Shown in pieces: positions 17,220 to 35,044 of a stretch of 35,224 bases of DNA. The notes below the pieces were generated by a model. That model was not told where the DNA came from, did no database searches, and was given only the letters and a program-made list of their open reading frames with translations. Every line of letters starts with the position of its first letter. The first letter of the stretch is position 1. This DNA is from Planctomycetota bacterium (GTDB lineage: Bacteria; Planctomycetota; Phycisphaerae; Phycisphaerales; Phycisphaeraceae), in NCBI GenBank assembly GCA_021413865.1, contig JAIOPN010000019.1:1-35224 (forward strand). Direction: 5' to 3'. Position numbers and translations under genes: made by a program.

Positions 17220-19640
17220 TCAGGGGCTCTTCCACCCCAGCGCCCGCAGGCCATTCAGCACTACGAGCACCGTCGAGCCCTCGTGGAACACCACGGCCAC
17301 CCCCAGGCTTGTGTAACCCATCGCCGCCAGCGGGGCGAGGATGGCGATCACGCCCAGCGCGATCACCAGGTTCTCCATGATGAGCCGGCGCGTGAAGCGG
17401 GAGATGCCCACCGCCTCGGGGAGTTTTTGCAGGTCGCCCGCCAGCAGCGCCACGTCGGCGGTCTCCATGGCCACGTCGCTGCCCGCGCCGCTGAGCCCGC
17501 CCACCGCGATGCCGACCGTCGCCCGCGCCATCGCCGGGGCGTCGTTCACGCCGTCGCCAACCATGGCGACGTAGCCGTACCGCTCAACGAGTTCCTCGAT
17601 GCAGCGCTGTTTCTGCTCCGGGAGCAGGCCCCCCTTGTAGTCATCCACCCCGACCTGCTCCGCGACCGCTCTTGCGGTGCTGGGGTTGTCGCCCGAGAGC
17701 AGGACGGTGTGTTTCACGCCCAGGCCGTGGAGCGCCGCCAGCGCATCATGCGCATCTTCGCGCGGCCGGTCCGCCAGGGCGATCACGCCGATCAACCGGC
17801 CGTCCGCCTCGACGACCGCGGTCGTGCGCCCCCTGGCTTCCAAGGCCGATTGCGCCGCACGCGCCGCGTCGAGCCCGGGCGTGGCGTCGTTGAACATCGC
17901 CAGCCGGCCCACCGCGACGGGCCGGCCGCCGACCTCGCCGGTGATCCCCATGCCCGGTGTCTGCGTCACATGTTCGGTCGCCGGGAGCGTCAGGTCCCGT
18001 GACTCCGCCTCGCGCGAGATCGCCTTCGCCAGGGGGTGGACGCTTCCCCGCTCCAGCGCCGCCGCGAGCGTGAGCACCTCGTTCTCGTCCTTCGCCCCCT
18101 CCAGCACGGCGATGTCCGTCACCTCCGGCTCGCCGTAGGTGAGCGTGCCGGTCTTGTCGAACGCGATCGCGCCGACCCGGCCCAGGTTTTCCAGGTGCGC
18201 CCCGCCCTTGATCAGCACGCCGCTCCGCGCCCCCCGCGCGATCCCGCTGAGCACCGCCGCCGGTGTCCCGATCGCCAGCGCGCAGGGCGAGGCCGCGGTC
18301 AGGAACGCCATCGCCTGGTAGAACCAACCCATCCAGTGGCTCGTGTGCGCCCTCCCGGGCTCCATCCCCAGCACCACCGGGATCACCGCCACGCACACCG
18401 TCGCCGCCAGCACCAGGGGGACGTACCACCGCTCCACGCGCTGGGTGAAAACCTGCGTCGGCGACTTGGTCGTCTGCGCCTCCTCCACCAGCCGGATCAC
18501 CCGCGCCACCGTGCTCTGCGAGGCGATGCGCGACACGCGCACGTCCAGCAGCCCCGCGCCGTTGAGCGTGCCGGCAAAGACGCCGTCGCCCGGCGATTTT
18601 TCGACCGGCACCGATTCGCCCGTGATCGGCGACTGGTCGATCGCCGAGTGGCCCTGCGCGACGGTGCCGTCCGCCGGCACGCGGTCGCCCGGGTGGATGC
18701 GCACCGCGTCGCCCACGTGCAGGTCCTGCACCGGCACCTCGCGCTCGTGGCCTCCGTCGCCGATCACGATCGCGGTCTCCGGCGCCAACCGTGTCAGCGC
18801 GCGGATCGCCCGCCGGGCGTGGTCCAGCGCCAAGATCTCCAGCCCGCCGCCCAGCGCGAAGAGGAACAACAGGAGCGCGCCCTCTTCGAGGTGGCCCAGC
18901 GCCGCCGCGCCGAACGCCGCCGCAAACATGAGCACATCGATGTCCAGCCGCATCCGTCGCAGCACTTTGGTCACGTCGATGCCCGTGAACCAGCCGGACG
19001 TGGCGTAACTCGCCGTCAGCAGCGCGACGCGGAGCAGCGGGGGCCCGTGCGTCCAGTTCACGACCAGGCCGGCGATGAGCAGCAGGCCGCCGACCACCGC
19101 GAGGATGAGGTGCGGCTGCCGCATCGCCTCGCGGATCACGCCCGTCTGCACGCGCGCCGACGCCCGGGCCGCGGCCTGGTCGTGGCTGAGCACGCGGACG
19201 CCCAGGTGGTCGAGCCGGCGGACTATCTCAGGCAGCGCGCACGCGCGGCGGTCGAACTCGACGCGCACCTGCTGCGAACCATACGACGCTGACGCATGCA
19301 CCCCCGGCAGCCGCGCGAGCACGGCATTGACCGTGTGCTCCTGCCGCGGCGAGATAAGTCCGGAGACCTGTAGCACCAGGCGGGCGACCGATTCGTCGAG
19401 CAGCCCTCCCGCGACGCCGACCAACCCCTCGATCTGTCCGAGGTTGATCAGGTCAGGGTCGTAGTCCAACTCAACGACGTCCGCGTGCGAGGGACCGGGG
19501 TGTGAGCCGGTCTCCACCACGCGCACCGCGGCGATGCCCGGGCGTGACGCGAGCTGCTCCCCGATCCGCCGTGCGCAGAGGGCTCTCCGCGCCGGATCGA
19601 CCGGGAACCGCAGCGGGAATCGGAAGGTTTTGCGCGGCAT
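17220..19640 (-). CDS. P1B-4-type metal-transporting ATPase (Co/Zn/Cd/Fe-type)
   Basis: 806 residues. All P-type motifs are present: TGESVPV (actuator), DKTGTLT with the phosphorylated Asp at 495, HPLAKAI in the nucleotide domain and GDGVNDAPAM. Metal selectivity motifs are SPC (451-453) in the middle helix and HEGST (about 786-790) near the end, the pair that defines the P1B-4 group, which exports Co2+, Zn2+, Cd2+ or Fe2+. The N-terminus has two ferredoxin-like stretches resembling HMA domains (about 8-75 and 88-150), but neither has CxxC; the second reads VSGLISPRQEHTV where MxCxxC would sit. So the metal-loading sites are lost or altered. It is a membrane protein with about eight helices. 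It lies upstream of the ABC permease on the same strand, 46 nt apart. Confidence 0.85.
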   Translation of the reverse strand: MPRKTFRFPLRFPVDPARRALCARRIGEQLASRPGIAAVRVVETGSHPGPSHADVVELDYDPDLINLGQIEGLVGVAGGLLDESVARLVLQVSGLISPRQEHTVNAVLARLPGVHASASYGSQQVRVEFDRRACALPEIVRRLDHLGVRVLSHDQAAARASARVQTGVIREAMRQPHLILAVVGGLLLIAGLVVNWTHGPPLLRVALLTASYATSGWFTGIDVTKVLRRMRLDIDVLMFAAAFGAAALGHLEEGALLLFLFALGGGLEILALDHARRAIRALTRLAPETAIVIGDGGHEREVPVQDLHVGDAVRIHPGDRVPADGTVAQGHSAIDQSPITGESVPVEKSPGDGVFAGTLNGAGLLDVRVSRIASQSTVARVIRLVEEAQTTKSPTQVFTQRVERWYVPLVLAATVCVAVIPVVLGMEPGRAHTSHWMGWFYQAMAFLTAASPCALAIGTPAAVLSGIARGARSGVLIKGGAHLENLGRVGAIAFDKTGTLTYGEPEVTDIAVLEGAKDENEVLTLAAALERGSVHPLAKAISREAESRDLTLPATEHVTQTPGMGITGEVGGRPVAVGRLAMFNDATPGLDAARAAQSALEARGRTTAVVEADGRLIGVIALADRPREDAHDALAALHGLGVKHTVLLSGDNPSTARAVAEQVGVDDYKGGLLPEQKQRCIEELVERYGYVAMVGDGVNDAPAMARATVGIAVGGLSGAGSDVAMETADVALLAGDLQKLPEAVGISRFTRRLIMENLVIALGVIAILAPLAAMGYTSLGVAVVFHEGSTVLVVLNGLRALGWKSP

Positions 19641-19795: not shown

Positions 19796-20731
19796 TCAGG
19801 CCCGCTTCGTCTTCGACGGCTGCGATCGGTGCCTCATCCCCGTCTCCTCGCGCAGCTTGGCGACCTCGGGTGGGGTGAGTTGCCGCCACTTGCCGCTGGC
19901 CAGCCCCTTGAGCATGAGCGAGCCGATGGCGACGCGTTGCAGGCGGTGGACCTTGAGACCCAGGCGGAACATCACGGTGCGGACCTCGCGGTTGTGCCCC
20001 TCGCGGAGCGTGACCATGAGTTTCGTCCGCTCCGCCGTGCCCTCGCCCTGGTCGTATCCCATCACCGTCACGCCCGTGGCCGATGGGTCACGGATTTCCG
20101 CCGGCGCGGAGGCGGCGTCTTCCTGCGGGCCGCGTTTGGGAGGTGGCGCGTGGGTGATGAGGCGGTTCATCGCATCGACGTCGGCGCCGGTGAGCCTGCC
20201 CTTGACGGTCACGAGGTAGCGTTTGGCGATGCCGTAGCGGGCGTGCGTGAGCCGGTTGGCGAGTTCGCCGTCGTTGGTCAGCAGGATCAGCCCGCTGGCG
20301 TCGGCGCTCAGCCGGCCGACGGGGAAGACGCGCTCCGCCAGGTCGGGCGGCAGGTCCACCAGCTCGGTGACCGTGCGGCGGTCCTCCGGGTCGTGGGCGG
20401 TGGAGATCACCCGCCGGGGCTTGTTCAGGGCGATATAGACGTAGCGGTCGCGCGGGTTGTGCGCGGGCTTGGGGATCGGGATGCCGTTGACCAGGATGCG
20501 GTCGCGCCAGGGATCGACCCACGCGGGCAGGGTGGTGACGGGCTTGCCGTTGACGGAGACCCGGCCGTTGGTGACAAGCGCTTCGCAGTCGCGCCGCGAG
20601 GCGACGCCGGCGAAGGCGAGGACCTTCTGGATGCGCTGGCCGTGCGAGGCGTCGCGCAGCGGGTCACCGTCGCCGGTGGGCTTCTTGGGTGCGTCGCCGG
20701 GTCGGCGGTTGGTTTTGCGGGGGCGGGTCAT
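19796..20731 (-). CDS. RsuA/RluB-family pseudouridine synthase-like protein with altered catalytic Asp
   Basis: 311 residues. An S4 RNA-binding domain (about 32-80: RIQKVLAFAGVASRRDCEALVTNGRVSVNG) is followed by the pseudouridine synthase domain (YIALNKPRRVISTAHD, then VGRLSADASGLILLTNDGELANRL, KRYLVTVKG, EGHNREVRTVMFRLGLKVHRLQRVAIG). The family normally has GRLD at the catalytic Asp; here the codon at 20308-20306 is AGC, giving GRLS (Ser142), with an Asp two residues later (D144). The protein may be inactive as a synthase, use D144, or act only in rRNA binding. Its ATG overlaps the stop of the small upstream gene (ATGA), so the two are translationally coupled. The basic N- and C-termini fit rRNA binding. 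Confidence 0.85.
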   Translation of the reverse strand: MTRPRKTNRRPGDAPKKPTGDGDPLRDASHGQRIQKVLAFAGVASRRDCEALVTNGRVSVNGKPVTTLPAWVDPWRDRILVNGIPIPKPAHNPRDRYVYIALNKPRRVISTAHDPEDRRTVTELVDLPPDLAERVFPVGRLSADASGLILLTNDGELANRLTHARYGIAKRYLVTVKGRLTGADVDAMNRLITHAPPPKRGPQEDAASAPAEIRDPSATGVTVMGYDQGEGTAERTKLMVTLREGHNREVRTVMFRLGLKVHRLQRVAIGSLMLKGLASGKWRQLTPPEVAKLREETGMRHRSQPSKTKRA

Positions 20732-20889
20732 GGTTGTTCCATCGCGGCGCGGCGTGCGTCGGCCTCATGTTTGTGCATGGTGATCATCGCCCGTTCGTCG
20801 ATCAGGCGGATGGCCAGCAGCGCGATCACCACGAGCACGGAGTAAAGCACGAGTCGTTTGGGCCAAGGTAGCAGGGGAGGGTGGGGCAT
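20728..20889 (-). CDS. Small single-pass membrane protein (53 aa)
   Basis: Reads MPHPPLLPWPKRLVLYSVLV..., one hydrophobic helix (about 14-29), then a charged tail with IDERAMITMHKHEADARRAAM, likely a short coiled coil in the cytoplasm. The stop overlaps the start of the rsuA/rluB-like gene by four bases (ATGA), strong evidence that it is real and co-translated. It begins 40 nt after lptB on the same strand. A TACGAT box 8 nt before the ATG suggests an additional leaderless start. No family was recognised. Confidence 0.75.
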   Translation of the reverse strand: MPHPPLLPWPKRLVLYSVLVVIALLAIRLIDERAMITMHKHEADARRAAMEQP

Positions 20890-20897
20890 CGCACGTC

Positions 20898-20903
20898 ATC
20901 GTA
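20898..20903 (-). promoter_or_regulatory. Candidate -10 box 8 nt before the 53-aa gene
   Basis: TACGAT on the minus strand, 8 nt before the ATG at 20889, in the 40-nt gap after lptB. It fits the -10-next-to-ATG pattern seen at several genes in the window. Confidence 0.35.
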
Positions 20904-20929
20904 GCAGGGCGGACTGCGCGGATGCATAT

Positions 20930-21670
20930 TCACGGGTCGAACTCGTCCCCGCGGAAGGTCGAGCCCAGGTAGAGCTTGCGGACCTGCTCGTTGTTGATGA
21001 TCTCACGCGGTGTGCCCTCGGCGAAAACCTTGCCCTCGAAGATGACGTAGGCGCGGTCGACGATCTCGAGCGTGCGCTGCACGTTGTGGTCGGTGACGAG
21101 CATGGCGATGCGGTGCGTGGCGCGCAGCCGGCGGATCTCGCGCTGCAGGTCCTCGACGGCGACGGGGTCAACGCCGGAGAACGGCTCGTCGAGGAGGATG
21201 AGCGTGGGCTCGGTGATCAGGGCGCGGGCGATCTCGAGCTTGCGCCGCTCGCCGCCCGAAAGGGTTCGCGCGAGCTGGCCGCGCAGCTTGGTGAGGCCGA
21301 ACTGCTCCATGAGCTCCGCGGCGCGCTGCTTGCGTTGCGCCTTGGTCATGGGCCGCGTCTCAAGGATGGCCATGAGGTTGTCCTCGACGCAGAGGCGCTG
21401 GAAGACGCTGGGCTCCTGGGCGAGGTAACCCATGCCCAGCTTGGCGCGCTGGTACATGGGGAGCTGCGAGACGTCCTTGCCGTCGAAGACGACCTGCCCT
21501 GCCTCGGGCGTGATCATGCCGATGGACATGCGGAAGCTGGTCGTCTTGCCCGCGCCGTTACGCCCCAGCAGGCCGACAATCTCACCCTCGGAGACGTCGA
21601 AGGAGACGTTGTCCACGACGGTGCGGCCGCCGTAGGTCTTGACGAGGTTGTGCGCTTTCAGGATGAACAT
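20930..21670 (-). CDS. lptB: LPS export ABC transporter ATP-binding protein LptB
   Basis: 246 residues, full length for LptB. Walker A is GRNGAGKTT (about 36-44), the Q-loop region is GMGYLAQEPSVFQRL (the QEPSVFR/QRL form is distinctive of LptB), the signature is LSGGERRKLEIARAL, and Walker B is LILLDEPFSGVDPVAV with TDHNVQ as the H-switch. It powers LptFG to extract lipopolysaccharide from the inner membrane and pass it along the Lpt bridge, implying an LPS-bearing, Gram-negative envelope. lptA, lptC and lptFG are not in the window. It heads a minus-strand group with the 53-aa protein and the rsuA/rluB-like gene. TATCAT lies 6 nt before the ATG with no Shine-Dalgarno. Confidence 0.92.
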   Translation of the reverse strand: MFILKAHNLVKTYGGRTVVDNVSFDVSEGEIVGLLGRNGAGKTTSFRMSIGMITPEAGQVVFDGKDVSQLPMYQRAKLGMGYLAQEPSVFQRLCVEDNLMAILETRPMTKAQRKQRAAELMEQFGLTKLRGQLARTLSGGERRKLEIARALITEPTLILLDEPFSGVDPVAVEDLQREIRRLRATHRIAMLVTDHNVQRTLEIVDRAYVIFEGKVFAEGTPREIINNEQVRKLYLGSTFRGDEFDP

Positions 21671-21676
21671 CGGGGC

Positions 21677-21682
21677 ATGATA
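21677..21682 (-). promoter_or_regulatory. Candidate -10 box 6 nt before lptB
   Basis: TATCAT on the minus strand ends 6 nt before the ATG at 21670, with no Shine-Dalgarno between. This predicts a leaderless lptB transcript. Confidence 0.45.
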
Positions 21683-21712
21683 GTTTAGCGACGCCCCGAA
21701 TGGGGCGGGCTT

Positions 21713-27421: not shown

Positions 27422-27762
27422 GCGGGAAGGCGGGAGAGAGTTAGCGGGAGGCGGAGTCGGGTCGGCATCTATACCACAAGCTGTCCCCCTTCCGACTGAG
27501 ATGAAACGGGGCGATTCCGGAACAAGGGTCGCTATCTTGCCCAGTCTCACGGGTTGAACTTTGTGAATGCAACTAAGCCGTGCTCGGCTGGTGGACGATA
27601 AAGGAGGGTAGATGGCATGATTAGACCACTGCATCAGAAACAGCATTGAATCGTAACATCCTTTAGAAACAGTTGGTTACGTCAGTTATTTTGATTACGA
27701 CGGCGGCTTTGGGACGCGATGGGGCGAGTGGCCGCTGGTCGTAAACTCGGGGAAAAATACCT
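27422..27762. other. Intergenic stretch before the peptide cassette
   Basis: No gene was recognised. An unusually strong Shine-Dalgarno AAAGGAGGG (27600-27608) precedes only ATG-GCA-TGA (27612-27620). That is overlapped by a 10-codon frame reading MIRPLHQKQH (27617-27649). These may be a leader peptide, a decayed gene or chance. Confidence 0.4.
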
Positions 27763-27791
27763 TTGACCCTTGGGGGGTCATGGGTTACATT
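27763..27791 (+). promoter_or_regulatory. Sigma-70-type promoter of the PqqD/HprK cassette
   Basis: TTGACC (27763-27768), exactly 17 nt, then TACATT (27786-27791). Transcription would start near 27798, giving a leader of about 120 nt that contains a stem-loop (GCCGGG at 27866-27871 with CCCGGC at 27881-27886). The first gene has a purine-rich ribosome site. Confidence 0.65.
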
Positions 27792-27916
27792 CAACGGGTT
27801 GGCAGTGTCGGGTGGGGGGTCATAGTCCGAAAGTCTTGGGGGTCCCATCTTGCTGAGGTGTGATTGCCGGGCTGGAGAGACCCGGCCGGATGGGCATCGA
27901 GGTTGGAGAAAGAGAA

Positions 27917-28123
27917 ATGACTGAAGAGCAGAACCATTCCACCGACACAAACACCGGCGCGGAAGCGCGCGGCGGCTCGCGTCGTGACTTCATCCGCAAA
28001 GCGGGCATCCTTGGCGTGCCGTTGCTGCTGACCATCTACAGCAAGCCGGTTCATGGTTGGACGCGCCCGCCCGGTGGCACCAATACCTCGCCCAGCGCGG
28101 GCTCCGCGGGTTCGACCAAGTAA
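27917..28123 (+). CDS. Small Tat-signal protein, candidate substrate/precursor peptide of the PqqD/HprK cassette
   Basis: 68 residues; start at 27917 after GGAGAAAGAGAA. Layout: acidic/polar leader (MTEEQNHSTDTNTGAEARGG, 1-20), twin-arginine motif SRRDFIRK, hydrophobic core AGILGVPLLLTIYS, a c-region KPVHG, then about 21 residues WTRPPGGTNTSPSAGSAGSTK. The RR motif with Phe at the consensus place fits a Tat signal, so the mature product would be a tiny Gly/Ser/Pro/Thr-rich peptide. It is the first gene after a good promoter and is followed by a PqqD-like protein, which in other systems binds a peptide substrate. That makes it the natural candidate for the modified peptide. It lacks Cys, so lanthionine or thiazole chemistry is unlikely. 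No family was recognised with certainty. Confidence 0.7.
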   Translation: MTEEQNHSTDTNTGAEARGGSRRDFIRKAGILGVPLLLTIYSKPVHGWTRPPGGTNTSPSAGSAGSTK

Positions 28124-28251
28124 TCAAACGAGGTTGCCCCGCTCCAACTTCGGCTCGCCAGACGCCGCCGCTCATCCCGCAACACAGAACTGACCGATCC
28201 TGCTATCACGGCCGCCGCCGTTCGGCGGTCTCGCTGCGCCGTGGATACGCC
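28124..28251. other. Spacer with hairpin between the small peptide and the PqqD gene
   Basis: A GC hairpin CCGCC-GTTC-GGCGG lies at about 28215-28228, 23 nt before the PqqD start, with no T-run after it. It could partly end transcription or protect the mRNA, so that the small first gene is made in excess, as in many peptide operons. Inference only. Confidence 0.35.
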
Positions 28252-28551
28252 ATGCCCGCCGACCCCGCCTTCACGCTCTGGCACGTGCCCGATCCCAAAC
28301 GCCTCCTCTGGCGCTGCTGGGACGACGGCTGCATCGTCTATCACATGGACTCGGGCGACACGCACGAACTCAACGACGTCGCCGCAGCGGCGCTGCGCTG
28401 CCTGGCTGCGGCGAAGCTGGATTACCATCAGGTCTCCCAGCTCGTCTGCGCCTCGCTCCAGGTCGAGGGCGGGACCGATTTCGACGGCCACATCCGCCAA
28501 CTGATGGACTCCTTCGACCAGGTGGGCTTGATCGAACCGGTGACACCGTGA
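28252..28551 (+). CDS. PqqD-family peptide chaperone-like protein (HPr-rel-A type)
   Basis: 99 residues from the ATG at 28252. The PqqD-like winged-helix fold is suggested by WRCWDDGCIVYHMDSGDTHELNDVAAAALRCL (about 20-50) and the C-terminal FDGHIRQLMDSFDQVGLIEPV: a strand-turn-strand with hydrophobic positions, HxLN, then helix-turn-helix. PqqD and related RRE proteins hold a peptide substrate for its modifying enzyme. Its stop overlaps the start of the next gene by four bases (GTGA), so it is translationally coupled to the HprK-related kinase. From memory, a PqqD-like protein next to HprK-related kinase A defines the HPr-rel-A system. The Shine-Dalgarno is weak (GTGGAT). Confidence 0.75.
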   Translation: MPADPAFTLWHVPDPKRLLWRCWDDGCIVYHMDSGDTHELNDVAAAALRCLAAAKLDYHQVSQLVCASLQVEGGTDFDGHIRQLMDSFDQVGLIEPVTP

Positions 28552-30725
28552 AGATCGGCGAGCTCTCCCAACGCGAACTCGAACAGCGGCTGCGCGGCGG
28601 GGGGCTGATGCTGCGCGCCGGGCCGTTTGTGGCGTGCATCCGTGCGAACGCGCCCCACGTCGCCGAAGAGGTCCGCCTGCTCTATGAGGATTACCCCCTC
28701 GCCGACGACGAGCCCGTCGCCGATTTCCACGCCCGTCTTGCCCTGGGCACGGGCCTCCGGCGGTTCATCAAGCCCAAGCTCTATTTCCACTGCGACAGCG
28801 ACCGCCCTTTCCTCCCGATGCCCCCCGCGCTGGCGATGCCCCTGCTGGAGTGGGGGCTTAACTGGGCCGTCGCCAACCGAGGCCACCGCTGGTTCATGAT
28901 GCACGCCGCCTGTATCGAGAGGCACGGCTTAGCCGCCATCCTCCCCGGCCAGCCCGGCGCGGGGAAATCCACGCTCACCTCCGCCCTCGTCTGGCACCGC
29001 TGGCGGTTGCTCACGGACGAGGCCACGCTCATCTCGCCCGCCGACGGCCGCGTTACCGCCGCCATCCGGCCCGTCAGCCTCAAGAACGCATCCATCGAGG
29101 TCATCCGCCGCTACTGCCCCCAGGCCGTCATCACTGCCGCGTCGCCCGACACGCACAAGGGCACGCTCGCCCACATGCGCGTCCCGCCCGACGCGCTGCG
29201 GCGCGCCGGCGAGACCGCCGCGCCGCGCTGGATCATCTTCCCCCGTTACGAAAAGGGGGCCCCGGCCGTGTTCGAGCCCGTCACCCGCGCCCGCGCCTTC
29301 ATGCGGATGATCCCCAACACCTTCAACTATTCCATCCTCGGCCCGACCGGGTTCGAGGCGCTGACGCGGCTCATCGAGCGGTGCGAAATCTTCGACTTCC
29401 GCTACGGCGACCTCGACGAAGCGTTCGCGGCGTTCGACAAACTGGCGGCGGGGGCGACGCCGCTCTCTATCTCGCAAGGGGATGCTCAAGGCGCGGGGGC
29501 CGTGGCGATTGATCTTGATGCAAAACCGGTAACCGTTGGTGTTGACGCCGCCACTCCATTACCTGCGGGAAAGCGAAACAGCGGGAAACAGGCCGACCCG
29601 GTGGCGACGCTCTTCGCCGCGCTGAGGTTCCCATACACGATGCCCGAACTGGAACCGCGCGAATGGGACACGCTGGCGCTGATGGCACGCGAGTCGGGTG
29701 TGCTGGCGCGGCTGGCCTACCATTGGCGCACGCAACCGGGCTTCGACGCGCTGCCGGCCCGGCTCCGGTGGATGCTCGAAGCGACGATCACGCTTTCGCG
29801 CAAGCAGGCCACGGGCATCAAGTGGGAAGTCAATCGCGTGGCCCGGGCGCTGGTGCCGCTGGGGGTGCCGGTCGTGCTGCTTAAAGGCGGGGCGTATGTC
29901 GCGGCGGGGCTGCCCGCGGCGCGCGGGCGCTGGGTGAACGACGTGGACATCATGGTGCCGCGCGAGGCACTAGACCGCGTCGAGGCGGCGCTGGAGGCGG
30001 AGGGGTGGGAATCGTCGGACAAGGACGAGTACGACGAGGCGTACTACCGCCGGTGGATGCATGAACTGCCGCCGATGCGTCACCGCAACCGCGAGACCTT
30101 CCTGGACGTTCACCACAACATCCTGCCCCCGACCGGGCGCTTGAAGCCCGACGCCGCGAAGCTGATGGCCGCCGCCGTGCCCTTGCGTTTCCCCGAGGGC
30201 GACCGCGCGCCGTACGGGGCGTCGTGCCTTTACACGCTGTCGCCGGCCGACATGGTGCTGCACAGCGCCGTACACCTGTTCCAGGATGGCGAACTGGAAG
30301 GGGGGCTGCGCGACCTGACCGATCTAGACGCGCTGCTGCGTCACTTCGGGGGCCTTGATTCTTCTTTTTATGACAGGCTTATCGACCGCGCGGAGGAACT
30401 GGGGCTGGGTCGTCCTCTGTATTACGTCTTGCGTTTCACGGTCCGGATGCTCGGGACGCCGATCCCCGCCGGCGCAACGGCCCATGCCGATGCCTTCGCC
30501 CCATTCGCCCCGGTGCGTGTACTCATGGACGCCCTGGTGGTCCGGGCACTCACCCCGGTGCCGCCGGGCCGAAACGGGGCATTGACGCGTTGGGCGGGCC
30601 ACCTGCTCTATATCCGGGCCCACTGGATGCGGATGCCGCCGCTCCTGCTGGCGAGGCACCTGGTGATTAAAGCCTGGCGCCGGATTGTGGACGCCGACCC
30701 TAAAAAAGAAGACGAAGCGATGTAA
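28548..30725 (+). CDS. HprK-related kinase A fused to a nucleotidyltransferase-like domain
   Basis: 725 residues, GTG start overlapping the PqqD stop. Residues 1-310 resemble HPr kinase-like enzymes: FMMHAACIERHGLAAILPGQPGAGKSTL (Walker A at 134-142, Lys140), then LLTDEATLISP, and a C-terminal part ending near GDLDEAFAAFDKL. After a linker (about 310-350), residues 350-725 match the uncharacterised nucleotidyltransferase family (PF14907-like): VVLLKGGAYVAAGLP (442-456), WVNDVDIMVPREALDRVEAALEAEGW with Asp465/Asp467 as likely metal ligands, FLDVHHNI, and LSPADMVLHSAVHLFQDGEL. These two proteins usually come from separate adjacent genes; here they are one chain. A role in phosphorylating or nucleotidylating the small peptide or a carrier is inference. 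The protein is cytoplasmic. Confidence 0.8.
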   Translation: MKIGELSQRELEQRLRGGGLMLRAGPFVACIRANAPHVAEEVRLLYEDYPLADDEPVADFHARLALGTGLRRFIKPKLYFHCDSDRPFLPMPPALAMPLLEWGLNWAVANRGHRWFMMHAACIERHGLAAILPGQPGAGKSTLTSALVWHRWRLLTDEATLISPADGRVTAAIRPVSLKNASIEVIRRYCPQAVITAASPDTHKGTLAHMRVPPDALRRAGETAAPRWIIFPRYEKGAPAVFEPVTRARAFMRMIPNTFNYSILGPTGFEALTRLIERCEIFDFRYGDLDEAFAAFDKLAAGATPLSISQGDAQGAGAVAIDLDAKPVTVGVDAATPLPAGKRNSGKQADPVATLFAALRFPYTMPELEPREWDTLALMARESGVLARLAYHWRTQPGFDALPARLRWMLEATITLSRKQATGIKWEVNRVARALVPLGVPVVLLKGGAYVAAGLPAARGRWVNDVDIMVPREALDRVEAALEAEGWESSDKDEYDEAYYRRWMHELPPMRHRNRETFLDVHHNILPPTGRLKPDAAKLMAAAVPLRFPEGDRAPYGASCLYTLSPADMVLHSAVHLFQDGELEGGLRDLTDLDALLRHFGGLDSSFYDRLIDRAEELGLGRPLYYVLRFTVRMLGTPIPAGATAHADAFAPFAPVRVLMDALVVRALTPVPPGRNGALTRWAGHLLYIRAHWMRMPPLLLARHLVIKAWRRIVDADPKKEDEAM

Positions 30726-30737
30726 TATGCTGTCGTA

Positions 30738-30760
30738 TCGCCCCGGGGGGTCCGGGGCGA
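30738..30760. terminator. Strong hairpin after the kinase-nucleotidyltransferase gene
   Basis: TCGCCCCGG (30738-30746) pairs with CCGGGGCGA (30752-30760): a 9-bp GC-rich stem with a GGGGT loop, 12 nt past the stop. There is no T-tract, so it may be an attenuator or processing site before the last gene of the cassette rather than a full terminator. Confidence 0.45.
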
Positions 30761-30785
30761 GGGGCCTGTCTCGGGGTGTGACGGC

Positions 30786-31877
30786 ATGAGCATATTGAGG
30801 CTTCGTCATCTGCTCGTCGGGCTTCTGCTGCTGCTCGCGGCATCAGGGGCGCGCGGCAACGAGACCGATCAATTCACGCTGCCCGAGCGCGAGAGCTTCG
30901 CCGACCTCGGCGAGTACATGTCGCGGACGCACTACGAGGTATTGTCGCGTGTGGTGAGCGACGCCAATCACCGGATCGCCGAAGTTTTGAAAAACAGCGA
31001 CGACGAGAAGGAGCGGGCCGAGGAACTGGCCGACGCGCGGTCGCCAGGCCGCCTGGCGGACGCGGTGCGTGAGACGTTCGGGCCCGCGATGTTCGAGATC
31101 GACGGGCTCGAACAACTGCTCTATTCCAAGGAGTTCAAGTCGCAGTACCCCGGCAAGATCACCGCCTACAAGACCGACAACTGGATTTATGCCGACGCGC
31201 TCCTGATCCTGGACCCGCGACGTTTGCTGTTCCTCCAGAACCCGTCGAGCACGATCAGGGTGTACGGCGTGTTCATGGGCACGGACAAGATCGGCCACTT
31301 CCACGACCTGGGCCATCTCTACTACAAGGACTACCTCGGTTACGTCCGCGACGGCGACACGGACCAGAAGGCGTGCGCCAAGATCGTCTCGGAGTATTCC
31401 AAGGGTGTCGTGTCGGAGAAGGGGATCGTCGGCAGCGTCGTGTCGGGGGTCTATTCCAACGCCGACCTGGCGTGCAACTACGCGGGGATGCGGTTCTATC
31501 AGAACCTGACCGAGCCCGTGCGGATCAACGGCGTCGAGCGGCCGCCGCTGATCGTCCGCAACGGAGATTTCCTCAAGCTCAACGACCACGTCAAGCCCGA
31601 CAAGCCGTGGTTCGGCGTGTTCGTTTCCGACCACTTCAACGAGGCGCTGAACCCCTGCCTGCACGACTGGATGATGCGGGGCTCGGTGCGGGACCGCGTC
31701 CGCAAGAACAAGGCGGCGATCCTGCGTTTCTACGCCGACCCCAGCGGCCAGCCCTACCCGCGCGAGCATTTCGAGACCTTGGCGCGGGAGCTGTCGACGT
31801 TCTACGGCGAGCCGTACGGCCACAGCGGGTTTAATGGGCATCTGGTCGGGGTTTACAACGTCTGCTTCGAGAAATAA
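30786..31877 (+). CDS. Secreted protein of unknown function with a DKIGHF-type His cluster
   Basis: 363 residues. Signal peptide MSILRLRHLLVGLLLLLAASGARG, so exported. The body is charged and well ordered. The most striking stretch is GTDKIGHFHDLGHLYYKDYLGY (about 162-183), with three His spaced H-x-H-x-x-x-H; it recalls the DKxxHF motif of YfiM-type envelope proteins and could bind a metal. A short linker and hairpin separate it from the kinase-nucleotidyltransferase gene on the same strand, so it may belong to the cassette. No enzyme family was recognised. Cys residues (about 198, 227, 296 and 361) could form disulfides in the periplasm. Confidence 0.65.
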   Translation: MSILRLRHLLVGLLLLLAASGARGNETDQFTLPERESFADLGEYMSRTHYEVLSRVVSDANHRIAEVLKNSDDEKERAEELADARSPGRLADAVRETFGPAMFEIDGLEQLLYSKEFKSQYPGKITAYKTDNWIYADALLILDPRRLLFLQNPSSTIRVYGVFMGTDKIGHFHDLGHLYYKDYLGYVRDGDTDQKACAKIVSEYSKGVVSEKGIVGSVVSGVYSNADLACNYAGMRFYQNLTEPVRINGVERPPLIVRNGDFLKLNDHVKPDKPWFGVFVSDHFNEALNPCLHDWMMRGSVRDRVRKNKAAILRFYADPSGQPYPREHFETLARELSTFYGEPYGHSGFNGHLVGVYNVCFEK

Positions 31878-32122
31878 ATGTGTTTCCCCGCATTCAAACC
31901 ATTCGATTCCGGCCCAATGAATCGTGAGCCGGGACCCTTTTCCCCCGGTTTGCCCCGGCATGTCTGATCTGCAATAATTGCCCTGTCGATGGCCGGTGAC
32001 GTCTCGGGTTCAACCTTGAGCCGACGGAACGCCGCCTGTCGCTTCGGAGTGTTCCACGCGCGAACCCACCCCGCCCCCCATCGGCCACCCCTTCCCCGGC
32101 CGTATCTTTGCCCCGAACATCC
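31878..32122. other. Intergenic region before the DUF1854 ABC exporter
   Basis: No gene was seen. TATCTT (32103-32108) lies 14 nt before the ATG at 32123 and could be a -10 box. No Shine-Dalgarno is evident. Confidence 0.4.
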
Positions 32123-35044
32123 ATGAAACTGCACACCCTCCCTCCCCAGGCGATTCATTCCAACTTGAAACAGGCCGGCGTTGACGTCGATGCCGCCGTC
32201 ATCAGCATCTCCAGCGACATCAACCTGCTGGGCCAGTACGAGCCGCAGTGGCTGGTCGCCAACGCGAAGATGCTCTGGGTCTTCGACGAGCGCCGCCCCA
32301 CGGAGACGCTGCTGACCGTCACCTTCGAGGAGACCAGCGAGTTCCGCACCGTCGCGGTCGTCGGCTCGGGCCTGCTCCAGGCCAAGATCAGCGGCATCTG
32401 GCTCGACCTGCTCCGTTTCTCCAACCGCCAGAAGTACTACTTCGGCCGCGTCGCCAAGCGGCTCGATCAGCTCCGGCAGGGCAACACCGTCACCATCGAG
32501 GAGGAGGACGAGCACGACCCCCGGCGCTGCAGGACCTGCGGTCTCATGCTCGAGTTCCAGGGCGAGACCTGCCCGCGCTGCCTCAACCGCGGCGCGGCGC
32601 TGAGCCGGGTGCTCCAACTCATGCGGCCCTACTGGGGCTCGGCCGGCGTCATGTTCCTGCTGCTGATCATCGGCATCATGATCGACCTGTCGATGCCGCA
32701 GCTCACCCGCATCCTCGTGGACCGCATCCTCGCGCCGGTCGATGCGCCGGTGAACGGCGCCGCGAGCACCGGCTCTCTGATCACCCGCCTTGCCGAGAAG
32801 CTCAGTTACGTTGAGCCGGTCAAGGCATTGCTGGTGGTCGTCGGGGCGCTGGCGTGCTTCAATATCCTGCGCGCTCTGGTCAACATCCTCAACGGCCGCA
32901 TGGCCAGCGCCGTCGGCACCTCCATCACCTTCGACGTCCGCGCCAAGCTCGTTGAGCACCTCGAAAAACTCAGCCTCAGCTACTACGACAAACAGTCCAC
33001 CGGCTCGCTGGTCGGCCGCGTCGCCTACGACACCGAGGCCGTGCAGGGCTTCATGAGCCAGCTCACCAGCGGCTTCCTCATGCAGATCATCATGGTGGTG
33101 CTCACGGGCTTCGCCATGTTCAGCGTCGAGCCGCACCTGGCGATGTGGGCGCTGCTCCCGGCGCCCTTCGTCATGTTCGGCGCTACGCTCTATTACCGTT
33201 GGATCTACCCCCGCTACAACCGCTTCTGGGACCGCCAGAGCAAGCAGGCGAACATGATCAACGGCATCCTCAGTGGCATCCGCGTCGTCAAGGCGTTCAA
33301 CCAGGAGGAGCGGGAGTTCAAGCGGTTCCAGCGGTCCTCCTCCACCCTGCGTGACGCCCGGCGCAGCCTCGACCTCTCCGCCGCGACCTACTACCCGATC
33401 TTCGGTTTAGTCTTCACCGCCGGCGGCTGGATCGTCTGGTACGTCGGCGGCAAGGACGTGCTCCTCCACAAGGTCAGCCCCGAAAGGGGCATCACCCTCG
33501 GTACGCTCCTCATGTTCATGGGCTACATGGGCATGTTCTACGCACCGCTCCAGAGCCTGACTAACCTGACGAGCTGGCTCACCGGCTTCAGCACGCAGAT
33601 GCACCGCATCTTCGAGGTGCTCGATACGCCCATCGCCGTGCCCGACGCGCGTGACCCCGTAAGTATTGAGGTGATGAAGGGGGACATCGAGTTCCAGAAC
33701 GTCGTTTTCGGCTACAGCCGGCAGAACCCTATCCTCAAGAGCGTGACCTTCAAGATCGACTCGGGTCAGATGATCGGCGTCGTCGGCCGCTCCGGCTCGG
33801 GCAAGACCACCGTCATCAACCTTATCTCCCGCTTCTACGACATCGACGAGGGCAAGATCCTGATCGACGGCCACGAGATCCGGAAGATCAGGCGTCAGGA
33901 CGTGAGCCGTCAGGTCGGCGTCGTCCTCCAGGAGCCGTTCCTCTTCCGCGGCACGCTCTGGCAGAACCTGGTGTACGGCCGGACCGACGCCGCCGTGCCC
34001 GATGTCCTGGCCGCCAGCCGCGCCGGCAACAGCCACGACTTCATCATGCGCCAGCTCTACGCTTACGACACATGGGTCGGCGAGCGCGGGGCGGGTCTCT
34101 CCGGCGGCGAGCGCCAGCGCCTCTCCATCGCCCGTGCGCTGCTGTGCGACCCGCGCATCCTCATCCTCGACGAGGCCACCAGCTCCGTGGATTCCGAGTC
34201 CGAGCTGGCCATCCAGAACGCGCTGTCCGAGCTGGTCAAGGGCCGTACCTCGATCATCATCGCCCACCGCCTGAGCACGCTCCGCAACTGCGACAAGATC
34301 ATGGTCATCGAGGAGGGCAGGCTCGTCGAGGAGGGCACCCACAACCAGCTCATGGCCATCCCCGAGGGCAAGTACGCCAAGCTCGTCAAAATCCAGACCT
34401 CCGTCAGCAAGACCGACAGCGTGGACACCATCGTCGCCCACGAAGAGCAGATGAAGAAGCAGGGCATCACCGACAAGCCCGTCACCGACGCCCCGCCCGA
34501 GGCCGACCCCACCACCGGCCTCATGCCCATCAACCACTTCCGCCCCCGCTGGCTCGAACCCGGCTTCGCCAAGATCCACCTGGGCAACCGCAACGCCCTC
34601 CACGTCACCATCCTCAACGAACGCATCTACAACGGCGTCTTCGCCCTCCGCTGCATGCCCATTCGATACCCCTCGCAGTTCATCAGCCTCCGCTGGGTCA
34701 ACGCCGAGAACCGCGAGCAGGAGATCGGCCTTATCCGCGACCTCACCCAGTGGCCCCCGGACGTCCAGCAGCTCATCAACGAATCCCTCCTCCGCCGCTA
34801 CTTCGTCCACGTCATCACCAGCGTCGAGTCCATCGAGCAGATCCAGAACTTCCTCAACTTCAAGGTCAACACCGACCTGGGCGAGATGGAGTTCTTCATG
34901 CGGTGGAGCTCCGACACGGCCCAGGACTACGGCGAAAAGGGCAAGGTGCTCCTCGACGTGGAGGAGAACCGCTACGTCATCCCCGACGTCTCGGCGCTCC
35001 CCGATGCCGACCGCGAACTCTTCGAGCGGTTCATCTACTGGTGA
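32123..35044 (+). CDS. ABC exporter fused to N-terminal zinc ribbon and C-terminal DUF1854 domain
   Basis: 973 residues from the ATG at 32123 (a TTG 15 nt earlier is in frame). About 1-125 form a PH-like beta domain (ISISSDINLLGQYEPQWLVAN). A zinc ribbon follows (CRTCG and CPRC; Cys 136, 139, 150, 153), then a six-helix exporter domain (about 175-500). The nucleotide-binding domain has Walker A GRSGSGKTT at 555-563, the signature LSGGERQRLSIARAL, Walker B ILILDEATSSVD and IIAHRLS. After about residue 800 comes DUF1854 (HLGNRNALHVTILNERIYNG to FFMRWSSDTAQDYG). In some proteobacteria a zinc-ribbon ABC transporter and a separate DUF1854 protein lie beside cyanophycin genes; here they are one polypeptide. 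No cyanophycin synthetase is in the window. The substrate is unknown, perhaps a peptide or polyamide. Confidence 0.85.
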   Translation: MKLHTLPPQAIHSNLKQAGVDVDAAVISISSDINLLGQYEPQWLVANAKMLWVFDERRPTETLLTVTFEETSEFRTVAVVGSGLLQAKISGIWLDLLRFSNRQKYYFGRVAKRLDQLRQGNTVTIEEEDEHDPRRCRTCGLMLEFQGETCPRCLNRGAALSRVLQLMRPYWGSAGVMFLLLIIGIMIDLSMPQLTRILVDRILAPVDAPVNGAASTGSLITRLAEKLSYVEPVKALLVVVGALACFNILRALVNILNGRMASAVGTSITFDVRAKLVEHLEKLSLSYYDKQSTGSLVGRVAYDTEAVQGFMSQLTSGFLMQIIMVVLTGFAMFSVEPHLAMWALLPAPFVMFGATLYYRWIYPRYNRFWDRQSKQANMINGILSGIRVVKAFNQEEREFKRFQRSSSTLRDARRSLDLSAATYYPIFGLVFTAGGWIVWYVGGKDVLLHKVSPERGITLGTLLMFMGYMGMFYAPLQSLTNLTSWLTGFSTQMHRIFEVLDTPIAVPDARDPVSIEVMKGDIEFQNVVFGYSRQNPILKSVTFKIDSGQMIGVVGRSGSGKTTVINLISRFYDIDEGKILIDGHEIRKIRRQDVSRQVGVVLQEPFLFRGTLWQNLVYGRTDAAVPDVLAASRAGNSHDFIMRQLYAYDTWVGERGAGLSGGERQRLSIARALLCDPRILILDEATSSVDSESELAIQNALSELVKGRTSIIIAHRLSTLRNCDKIMVIEEGRLVEEGTHNQLMAIPEGKYAKLVKIQTSVSKTDSVDTIVAHEEQMKKQGITDKPVTDAPPEADPTTGLMPINHFRPRWLEPGFAKIHLGNRNALHVTILNERIYNGVFALRCMPIRYPSQFISLRWVNAENREQEIGLIRDLTQWPPDVQQLINESLLRRYFVHVITSVESIEQIQNFLNFKVNTDLGEMEFFMRWSSDTAQDYGEKGKVLLDVEENRYVIPDVSALPDADRELFERFIYW

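Follow-up and report, generated by a model that had tools for sequence, protein, structure and literature searches.

A probable RiPP-like HPr-rel-A cassette with a Tat-type precursor and a fused kinase-nucleotidyltransferase in a Planctomycetota contig

The window analyzed here, which is the whole of contig JAIOPN010000019.1 (35,224 nucleotides; assembly GCA_021413865.1) from a Planctomycetota bacterium of the class Phycisphaerae, carries a compact cassette, all on the plus strand, that codes for a 68-amino-acid (aa) protein with a twin-arginine (RR) leader, a PqqD-family protein, and a fusion of an HprK-related kinase to a nucleotidyltransferase. By its family matches this is an HPr-rel-A locus (TIGR04353, TIGR04352) with a fused PF14907 nucleotidyltransferase, and we consider it probable that it works in the manner of systems for ribosomally synthesized and post-translationally modified peptides (RiPPs), phosphorylating serine in a precursor of the twin-arginine translocation (Tat) type. 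On this reading, the 68-aa protein would be the precursor, with a hydrophobic RR leader followed by a 21-residue Ser/Thr-rich core; the PqqD-family protein would act as a RiPP recognition element (RRE) that binds the leader and presents the precursor; the kinase domain would put one or more phosphates on one or more of the core serines; the fused nucleotidyltransferase might cap the phosphoserine with a nucleotide or a sugar-phosphate; and the precursor would be exported via Tat, with the leader removed at about the junction of VHG and W. The elements of the cassette are:

27917-28123, plus strand: 68-aa RR-leader precursor, the proposed substrate (open reading frame (ORF) whose ATG is preceded on the 5' side by a GGAG stretch; third-codon-position GC 0.78)
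27977-28057, plus strand: leader SRRDFIRKAGILGVPLLLTIYSKPVHG, residues 21-47, comparable to SRRRFxKAGLxAxGVLLTLxSRP of the long precursors described below
28058-28120, plus strand: core WTRPPGGTNTSPSAGSAGSTK, residues 48-68, the Ser/Thr-rich tail after the leader
28252-28551, plus strand: PqqD-family RRE, 99 aa, TIGR04353 (family scan)
28548-30725, plus strand: 725-aa kinase-nucleotidyltransferase fusion (ORF and family scans)
28548-29447, plus strand: HprK-related kinase A domain, about residues 1-300 (TIGR04352)
29640-30725, plus strand: nucleotidyltransferase region fused to the kinase, with a GG..DVD motif (PF14907)

The ORFs and family scans give the same gene positions, strand and 4-base overlap of the pqqD and kinase-nucleotidyltransferase genes as an earlier sequence-only reading of this DNA. 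The PqqD protein scores 46.7 bits on TIGR04353 (HPr-rel-A system PqqD family peptide chaperone; cut-off 35), the first 300 residues of the 725-aa protein score 347.4 bits on TIGR04352 (HprK-related kinase A; cut-off 200), and its C-terminal half scores 195 bits on PF14907 (cut-off 31), an uncharacterized nucleotidyltransferase that we take to be part of the HPr-rel-A system. Among the loci examined, a single ORF for both kinase and nucleotidyltransferase is limited to the window and L036.

The 68-aa protein is linked to this system by its leader. A profile of 54 long precursors (alignment A4), which excludes the window and all sequences of its class, has the window ORF as its top match with an E-value of 2.9e-6 at a nominal Z of 10000; the E-values of this profile, and of the leader-model and fusion searches described below, all use nominal database sizes. 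When the same profile is run on the ORFs of the window and of 66 loci from its class, an ORF from G053, the genome bearing the nearest cassette, comes second, and the ten best matches are all RR leaders of cassettes. None of 891 ORFs in 36 loci found by the Tat model attains an E-value below 0.01 with it. A separate E-value of 1e-16 for the window ORF comes from an alignment that included the window's own sequence and is not independent. On the Tat model itself (TIGR01409; cut-off 16.7) the protein scores 16.2 bits, with 16.5 on a rescan and 16.7 when scanned with its neighbours, and the host genome has TatC.

Within the leader, S42 aligns with the Ser of the SRP motif, which is invariant in all 54 long precursors, while the core offers T49, T55, T57, S58, S60, S63, S66 and T67 as candidate acceptors. 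Alignment A2, whose L109 row has the wrong frame, places T-SPS-AG of the window against K-SPS-GF, where the long precursors have SPSG; because the window tail is of low complexity, this correspondence is suggestive only. The G053 relative (79 aa, L111:6396-6635) likewise consists of just the leader and a short tail. Since the long relatives carry about 140 further residues, the window's 68-aa protein represents a minimal form.

The association extends across 80 loci with genes for relatives of the 725-aa protein. These are the best 80 among 379; they are mostly from Betaproteobacteria, are not independent of each other, and include two named Phycisphaeraceae. The kinase and the nucleotidyltransferase are found in all 80 and pqqD in 79, and 77 have an RR-leader gene immediately upstream of pqqD: 70 identified by clustering, four by reading (L031, L036, L037 and L064), and three (L046, L083 and L096) whose precursor, pqqD and kinase genes form a block on the strand opposite to the nucleotidyltransferase gene. 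An all-against-all ORF comparison brought out one unnamed protein cluster from 71 of the 80 loci; 70 of these clustered precursor genes are upstream of pqqD on the same strand, with a median gap of 16.5 bases and a largest gap of 326. At L102 the precursor gene is downstream of pqqD, at L033 it is broken into two ORFs, and at L044 and L085 it is cut by the contig edge, with open frames that extend back past the called start to include the RR. L077 has a precursor piece and pqqD some 27 kb away from the kinase, where the same contig begins. At L045, from a Phycisphaeraceae genome, a gene read by eye as transposase or insertion-sequence-like (L045:4816-5655) stands upstream of pqqD, and a 109-aa RR-leader gene (L119:4099-4428) is found on the same contig, 13.5 kb off and on the other strand. 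The sequence-only reading had proposed to test whether a short RR-signal gene always lies upstream of homologous kinases; the cassette passes this test, with the RR leader there in the 77 loci, usually followed by about 140 further residues.

These long precursors typically show the leader SRRRFxKAGLxAxGVLLTLxSRP, then C.SPSGF.SGN.S, and then a conserved C-terminal part. R31, R32, S50 (the Ser of SRP), S63, S67 and N143 (numbering of L098) are invariant in all 54 aligned sequences. About 110 of the approximately 140 post-leader residues are modelled as a helical domain, with block-mean predicted local distance difference test (pLDDT) values of at least 95 over residues 81-190, and this C-terminal domain has no PDB match with an E-value of 0.001 or less. 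When 17 precursors were scanned against Pfam and NCBIfam, the matches had E-values of 0.059 and above, with none over a cut-off. In L098:5084-5659 and its relatives (alignment A4) the C-terminal domain also holds a SPGYWKN...WP motif.

In the window's own class, 88 of 397 genomes match the kinase family, six of them over the cut-off. From this class 66 loci, G053 included, were fetched and oriented by the kinase. A tree of 42 kinases resolves two groups with full support, with the window falling with HPr-rel-A proper and a sister clade making up the other; in a TIGR04352 scan of ten kinases, all seven from the 80-locus set are over the cut-off and all three from the sister clade are under it. 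Fifty-eight cassettes could be evaluated, those of the window and G053 among them, and 30 of these have a hydrophobic RR ORF around the pqqD start, as against 73 of 1605 control windows (about 4.5%); the figure of 30 is approximate because L128 was counted in a wrong frame (its true leader is further upstream), the 'far' matches of L161 and L178 are not genuine, and L144 was overlooked. A further ten class loci carry a Cys-rich RR peptide at a distance of 1.4-1.7 kb upstream of pqqD. A hidden Markov model (HMM) of the class leader, trained on 38 sequences, finds the leader in 53 of the 65 sister-clade loci, 13 of them outside the training set; the 65 leave out the window and G053, neither of which belongs to the sister clade.

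The class leaders, some of which are near-identical between loci, carry a further signature after the RR: [YWF]xxPx[LVIAFY] is present in 35 of 40 unique leaders, compared to 1 of 33 ordinary Tat leaders taken from these genomes and related ones. The cores are of more than one kind, with 16 of the 40 unique ones being Cys-rich and 23 of the 32 short non-Cys cores (counted by locus, some near-identical) ending in Ser. Both the 40 leaders and the 32 cores include those of the window and G053, whose leaders are without the motif. Knottin-like cores, Cys-rich and with a CC pair, are seen in upstream RR peptides of L137, L138, L140, L141, L158, L159, L169, L170 and L176. Read by eye, L006, L019, L021 and L025 have an upstream gene of about 300-490 aa that resembles VKOR/DsbA-type oxidoreductases.

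Natural fusions tie the leader to the enzymes. In five class loci the kinase ORF continues, without a change of frame, through an RR leader to a Cys-rich core, and in a sixth a PqqD/RRE domain is followed by an RR leader, which contains FVAPLV, and then by a Cys-rich core:

L155:2731-3909, minus strand: kinase-leader-core fusion, in-frame ORF
L174:1944-3152, minus strand: kinase-leader-core fusion, in-frame ORF
L178:2695-3876, minus strand: kinase-leader-core fusion, in-frame ORF
L181:2672-3925, minus strand: kinase-leader-core fusion, in-frame ORF
L182:3017-4204, plus strand: kinase-leader-core fusion, in-frame ORF
L116:9658-10305, minus strand: PqqD/RRE, RR leader and Cys-rich core, in-frame ORF

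L116 also has a second pqqD-like ORF beside the fusion. Going by these ORFs, enzyme and presumed substrate would be joined in one polypeptide. Together with the 77 of 80 loci and the best match of the profile, the fusions support the earlier proposal that the PqqD protein, the kinase and the nucleotidyltransferase go together with the small RR protein, their likely substrate.

The PqqD protein is modelled with a pLDDT of 93.9, and the best fold matches of the model are TbiB1 and then TfuB1, both lasso-peptide RREs solved with their leaders, with PqqD coming ninth. A 28-row profile of the family likewise retrieves TbiB1 (5e-10) and TfuB1 (6e-10) from PDB sequences. In its fold class, the protein thus models as a lasso-type RRE. 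The nucleotidyltransferase, present in 52 of the 66 class loci as well as in all of the 80-locus set, keeps a GG...DVD motif in the window (GGAYVAAGLPAARGRWVNDVD), which we take to be catalytic. Over the P-loop region the kinase can be aligned with HprK at an E-value of 0.07, which is weak by single sequence; across 147 aligned kinases, H119, K140, D157 and E158 are invariant throughout, with E158 standing at the position of the second Asp of HprK. A His-Lys-Asp-Asp motif is quoted as essential in lasso kinases (PMC9266682). The predicted modification of Ser fits what has been characterized for HprK-like RiPP kinases (PMC13381572, PMC9266682).

Several observations weigh against the proposed pathway. 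In the window leader the first proline stands in LGVPLL, which has no aromatic residue where the RRE motif has one, and a second site, YSKPVH, fits that motif only in part. The class-leader HMM misses the window peptide and gives the G053 peptide an E-value of 0.05, and none of the 70 leaders from the 80-locus set has [YWF]xxPx[LVIAFY]. The last residue of the window core is not Ser. No leader peptidase was recognized beside the window cassette among the genes scanned there (the NadA, MatE, cassette, 363-aa and ABC genes). The leader is internal in the six fusions, which misfits a simple N-terminal Tat signal; an RRE-binding role fits this arrangement better. Together with the shortness and low complexity of the window core, it also leaves the earlier suggestion that the protein is exported folded without support. 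Finally, LppN, the NTP transferase of the linear polyphosphorylated peptides (LPPs) of Bacillota (Popov et al. 2026, PMC13381572), was inactive in a heterologous host, and the nucleotidyltransferase step is for this reason the weakest of the proposal.

Four other explanations were weighed. The RR protein could be an ordinary small Tat substrate that happens to share the operon, with the kinase and nucleotidyltransferase acting on a carrier protein or small molecule. Its score close to the Tat model cut-off and the TatC of the genome would suit such a protein, but we regard this as rather unlikely given a leader family that is separable from ordinary Tat leaders (0/891 control ORFs), six fusions to kinase or PqqD, an RRE whose fold is closest to lasso RREs, and invariant Ser residues in leader and core. 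We hold it hardly credible that the 68-aa ORF is not a gene at all: the rule by which it was picked also picks hydrophobic RR ORFs in the 4.5% or so of comparable windows noted above, but against this stand its match to an independent profile, its conserved position in the relatives and its codon-position GC pattern.

The two remaining explanations accept the substrate and differ over what is made of it. The serines of a secreted structural protein might receive a sugar-phosphate or nucleotide as a surface decoration, no free peptide being produced, with the mini-protein as a reduced form. The long substrates with their folded domain, the PF14907 protein in all 80 related loci, the cluster of polysaccharide-export type near 30 of the 80 (one representative scanned), and the homologue PsmN, which adds hexoses to phosphoserine (PMC9266682), all point in that direction; the short cores of the class, which resemble peptides rather than surface proteins, point away from it, as does the fact that no anchoring gene was found to be conserved, and on balance we think it unlikely, though to be taken seriously. 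Alternatively, Ser might be phosphorylated merely for elimination to dehydroalanine, as in lanthipeptides, with Cys-rich cores then becoming cross-linked. The 16 of 40 unique cores that are Cys-rich would lend themselves to this, but no lyase or cyclase was recognized at the window cassette, the window core has no Cys, and the nucleotidyltransferase has no place in such a route, making it very improbable. We therefore favour a RiPP-like cassette that phosphorylates a Tat-leader precursor, a reading for which sequence and model show the gene order, the homology, an RRE of the lasso-type fold class, catalytic residues that are intact, the RR-leader association and the natural fusions; the reactions predicted for the RRE, kinase, nucleotidyltransferase and Tat steps, and the serine that would be used, are inferred.

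A broader reading, which as a whole we rate at a little under an even chance, is that a large superfamily of Tat-leader phosphopeptide systems exists in Pseudomonadota, Planctomycetota and the window's class. It has four parts, held jointly: a single RR leader would dock on the RRE via a hydrophobic stretch resembling [YF]xxPx[VIL]; the same leader would later serve as a Tat signal; the cores would range from a few Ser-ended residues through Cys-rich knottin-like miniproteins to about 140 residues with a folded domain; and some species would have precursor and kinase, or precursor and RRE, in one polypeptide, so that modification would take place in cis. From the present analysis a substrate family can be proposed for HPr-rel-A that is tied to the kinase and the RRE by natural gene fusions, and HPr-rel-A can be linked to the Bacillota LPPs reported in 2026. 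The function is directly testable with three small genes. Among the predictions of the proposal are a conserved leader, candidate acceptor serines and a step coupled to Tat, which the papers searched do not describe for peptides of this sort. With a leader and 21 residues for one fused kinase-nucleotidyltransferase, the window offers an unusually compact test case, and the cassette and its relatives suggest a little-known way of making phosphate-tagged peptides.

Two further features flank the cassette genes:

27763-27791, plus strand: sigma-70-like promoter TTGACC-N17-TACATT, weak (9/12 consensus bases)
30786-31877, plus strand: 363-aa protein (ORF)

The promoter is present as the sequence-only reading had described it; with three such sites in 27640-32130 on both strands, against 0.5 expected, it counts as weak evidence. 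The 363-aa protein, predicted to be secreted and with a His cluster (KIGHFHDLGH), has no Pfam or NCBIfam family. It had been counted as a member of the cassette, which we reject: it is matched in 13 of 198 class genomes and has no match in G053. Downstream of its gene, at 32108-35044, is an ABC exporter with a C-terminal DUF1854; we did not adopt it as a dedicated exporter, none having been seen by eye beside the G053 cassette. Elsewhere in the window, the ORFs at 18036-19292, 19829-20845 and 20858-21688 (276-418 aa) have no Pfam match at an E-value of 0.001 or less and are of uncertain genehood. One representative was scanned from each of ten other gene clusters that recur near the 80 loci. 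Among them are a trypsin-like peptidase (PF13365) near 31 loci (representative L097:3191-4042) and the polysaccharide-export type already mentioned (representative L042:10480-11193), and neither was recognized among the genes scanned beside the window cassette. The two are leads, the peptidase as a possible leader peptidase and the export gene as a sign of a capsule context, but they may just reflect a shared exopolysaccharide neighbourhood or common descent of the neighbourhoods.

Compared with HPr-rel-A as defined in NCBIfam, the window has the same kinase and adjacent PqqD protein, both over their curated cut-offs, and the nucleotidyltransferase that accompanies them in all 80 related loci. 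The NCBIfam models cover the kinase and PqqD, whereas the precursors scanned have no Pfam or NCBIfam model over a cut-off; the window differs further in its kinase-nucleotidyltransferase fusion and in a precursor of leader plus 21 residues only. No paper on HPr-rel-A and no substrate for it were found in the open-licence PubMed Central literature, in which the term 'HprK-like kinase' occurs in PMC13381572 only.

Our best reading is that the system is akin to the LPP systems of Bacillota and to those of paeninodin. With the LPPs it shares a discrete RRE, an HprK-like kinase and an NTP transferase acting with a precursor of conserved N-terminus and variable core, and LppK phosphorylates Ser3 of the core (PMC13381572). 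Discrete lasso RREs recognize [Y/W]xxPx[L/V/I/A/F/Y], LPP leaders have YxxP, and RREs of both kinds bind [Y/W]xxPx[hydrophobic] (PMC13381572); the sister-clade leaders share this [Y/W]xxP-type motif. LPP loci often lie beside capsule genes (PMC13381572), comparable to the polysaccharide-export type gene near 30 of the 80 loci here. In contrast, LPPs have an SpI-like leader peptidase and an MsbA-like exporter, with no RR leader mentioned in the available part of the paper, and they are called restricted to Bacillota (PMC13381572), while the cassettes here come from Pseudomonadota, Planctomycetota and the window's class. The LPP leader motif YxxPxVLxHQxIxFETxxS is absent from the window leader (ILGVPLLLTIYSKPVHG), and no SpI-like signal peptidase was recognized among the NadA, MatE, cassette, 363-aa and ABC genes scanned around the cassette; as motif and peptidase were looked for and not found, we file the cassette apart from the LPPs.

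The paeninodin and pseudomycoidin systems (PadeK, PsmK and PsmN) similarly have an HprK-like kinase acting on Ser and, after it, a nucleotidyltransferase. PadeK modifies the C-terminal Ser of its precursor (PMC9266682), a residue that is also frequent at the end of the class cores. The leader here is instead of the RR type, and neither a macrolactam cyclase nor a B2 protease was recognized among the window genes scanned around the cassette. With ordinary Tat substrates (TIGR01409) the precursors share the RR.F consensus, the hydrophobic region and a TatC in the host, but differ in forming a separable leader family with an extra conserved Ser and Pro that stands internally in the six fusions. 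No combination of a Tat-type-leader precursor with an RRE is described in the open-licence PubMed Central papers searched, including the available part of PMC9902471.

The earlier suggestion of a new peptide-modification route accordingly stands in part. Already known are the enzyme pair, as HPr-rel-A in NCBIfam, and the logic of RRE, HprK-like kinase and NTP transferase acting on linear peptides, from the LPPs (PMC13381572). Within the papers searched, what is new comprises the precursor family with its Tat-type leader, the hosts, cores that end in Ser or are Cys-rich, and the fusions of enzyme to precursor.

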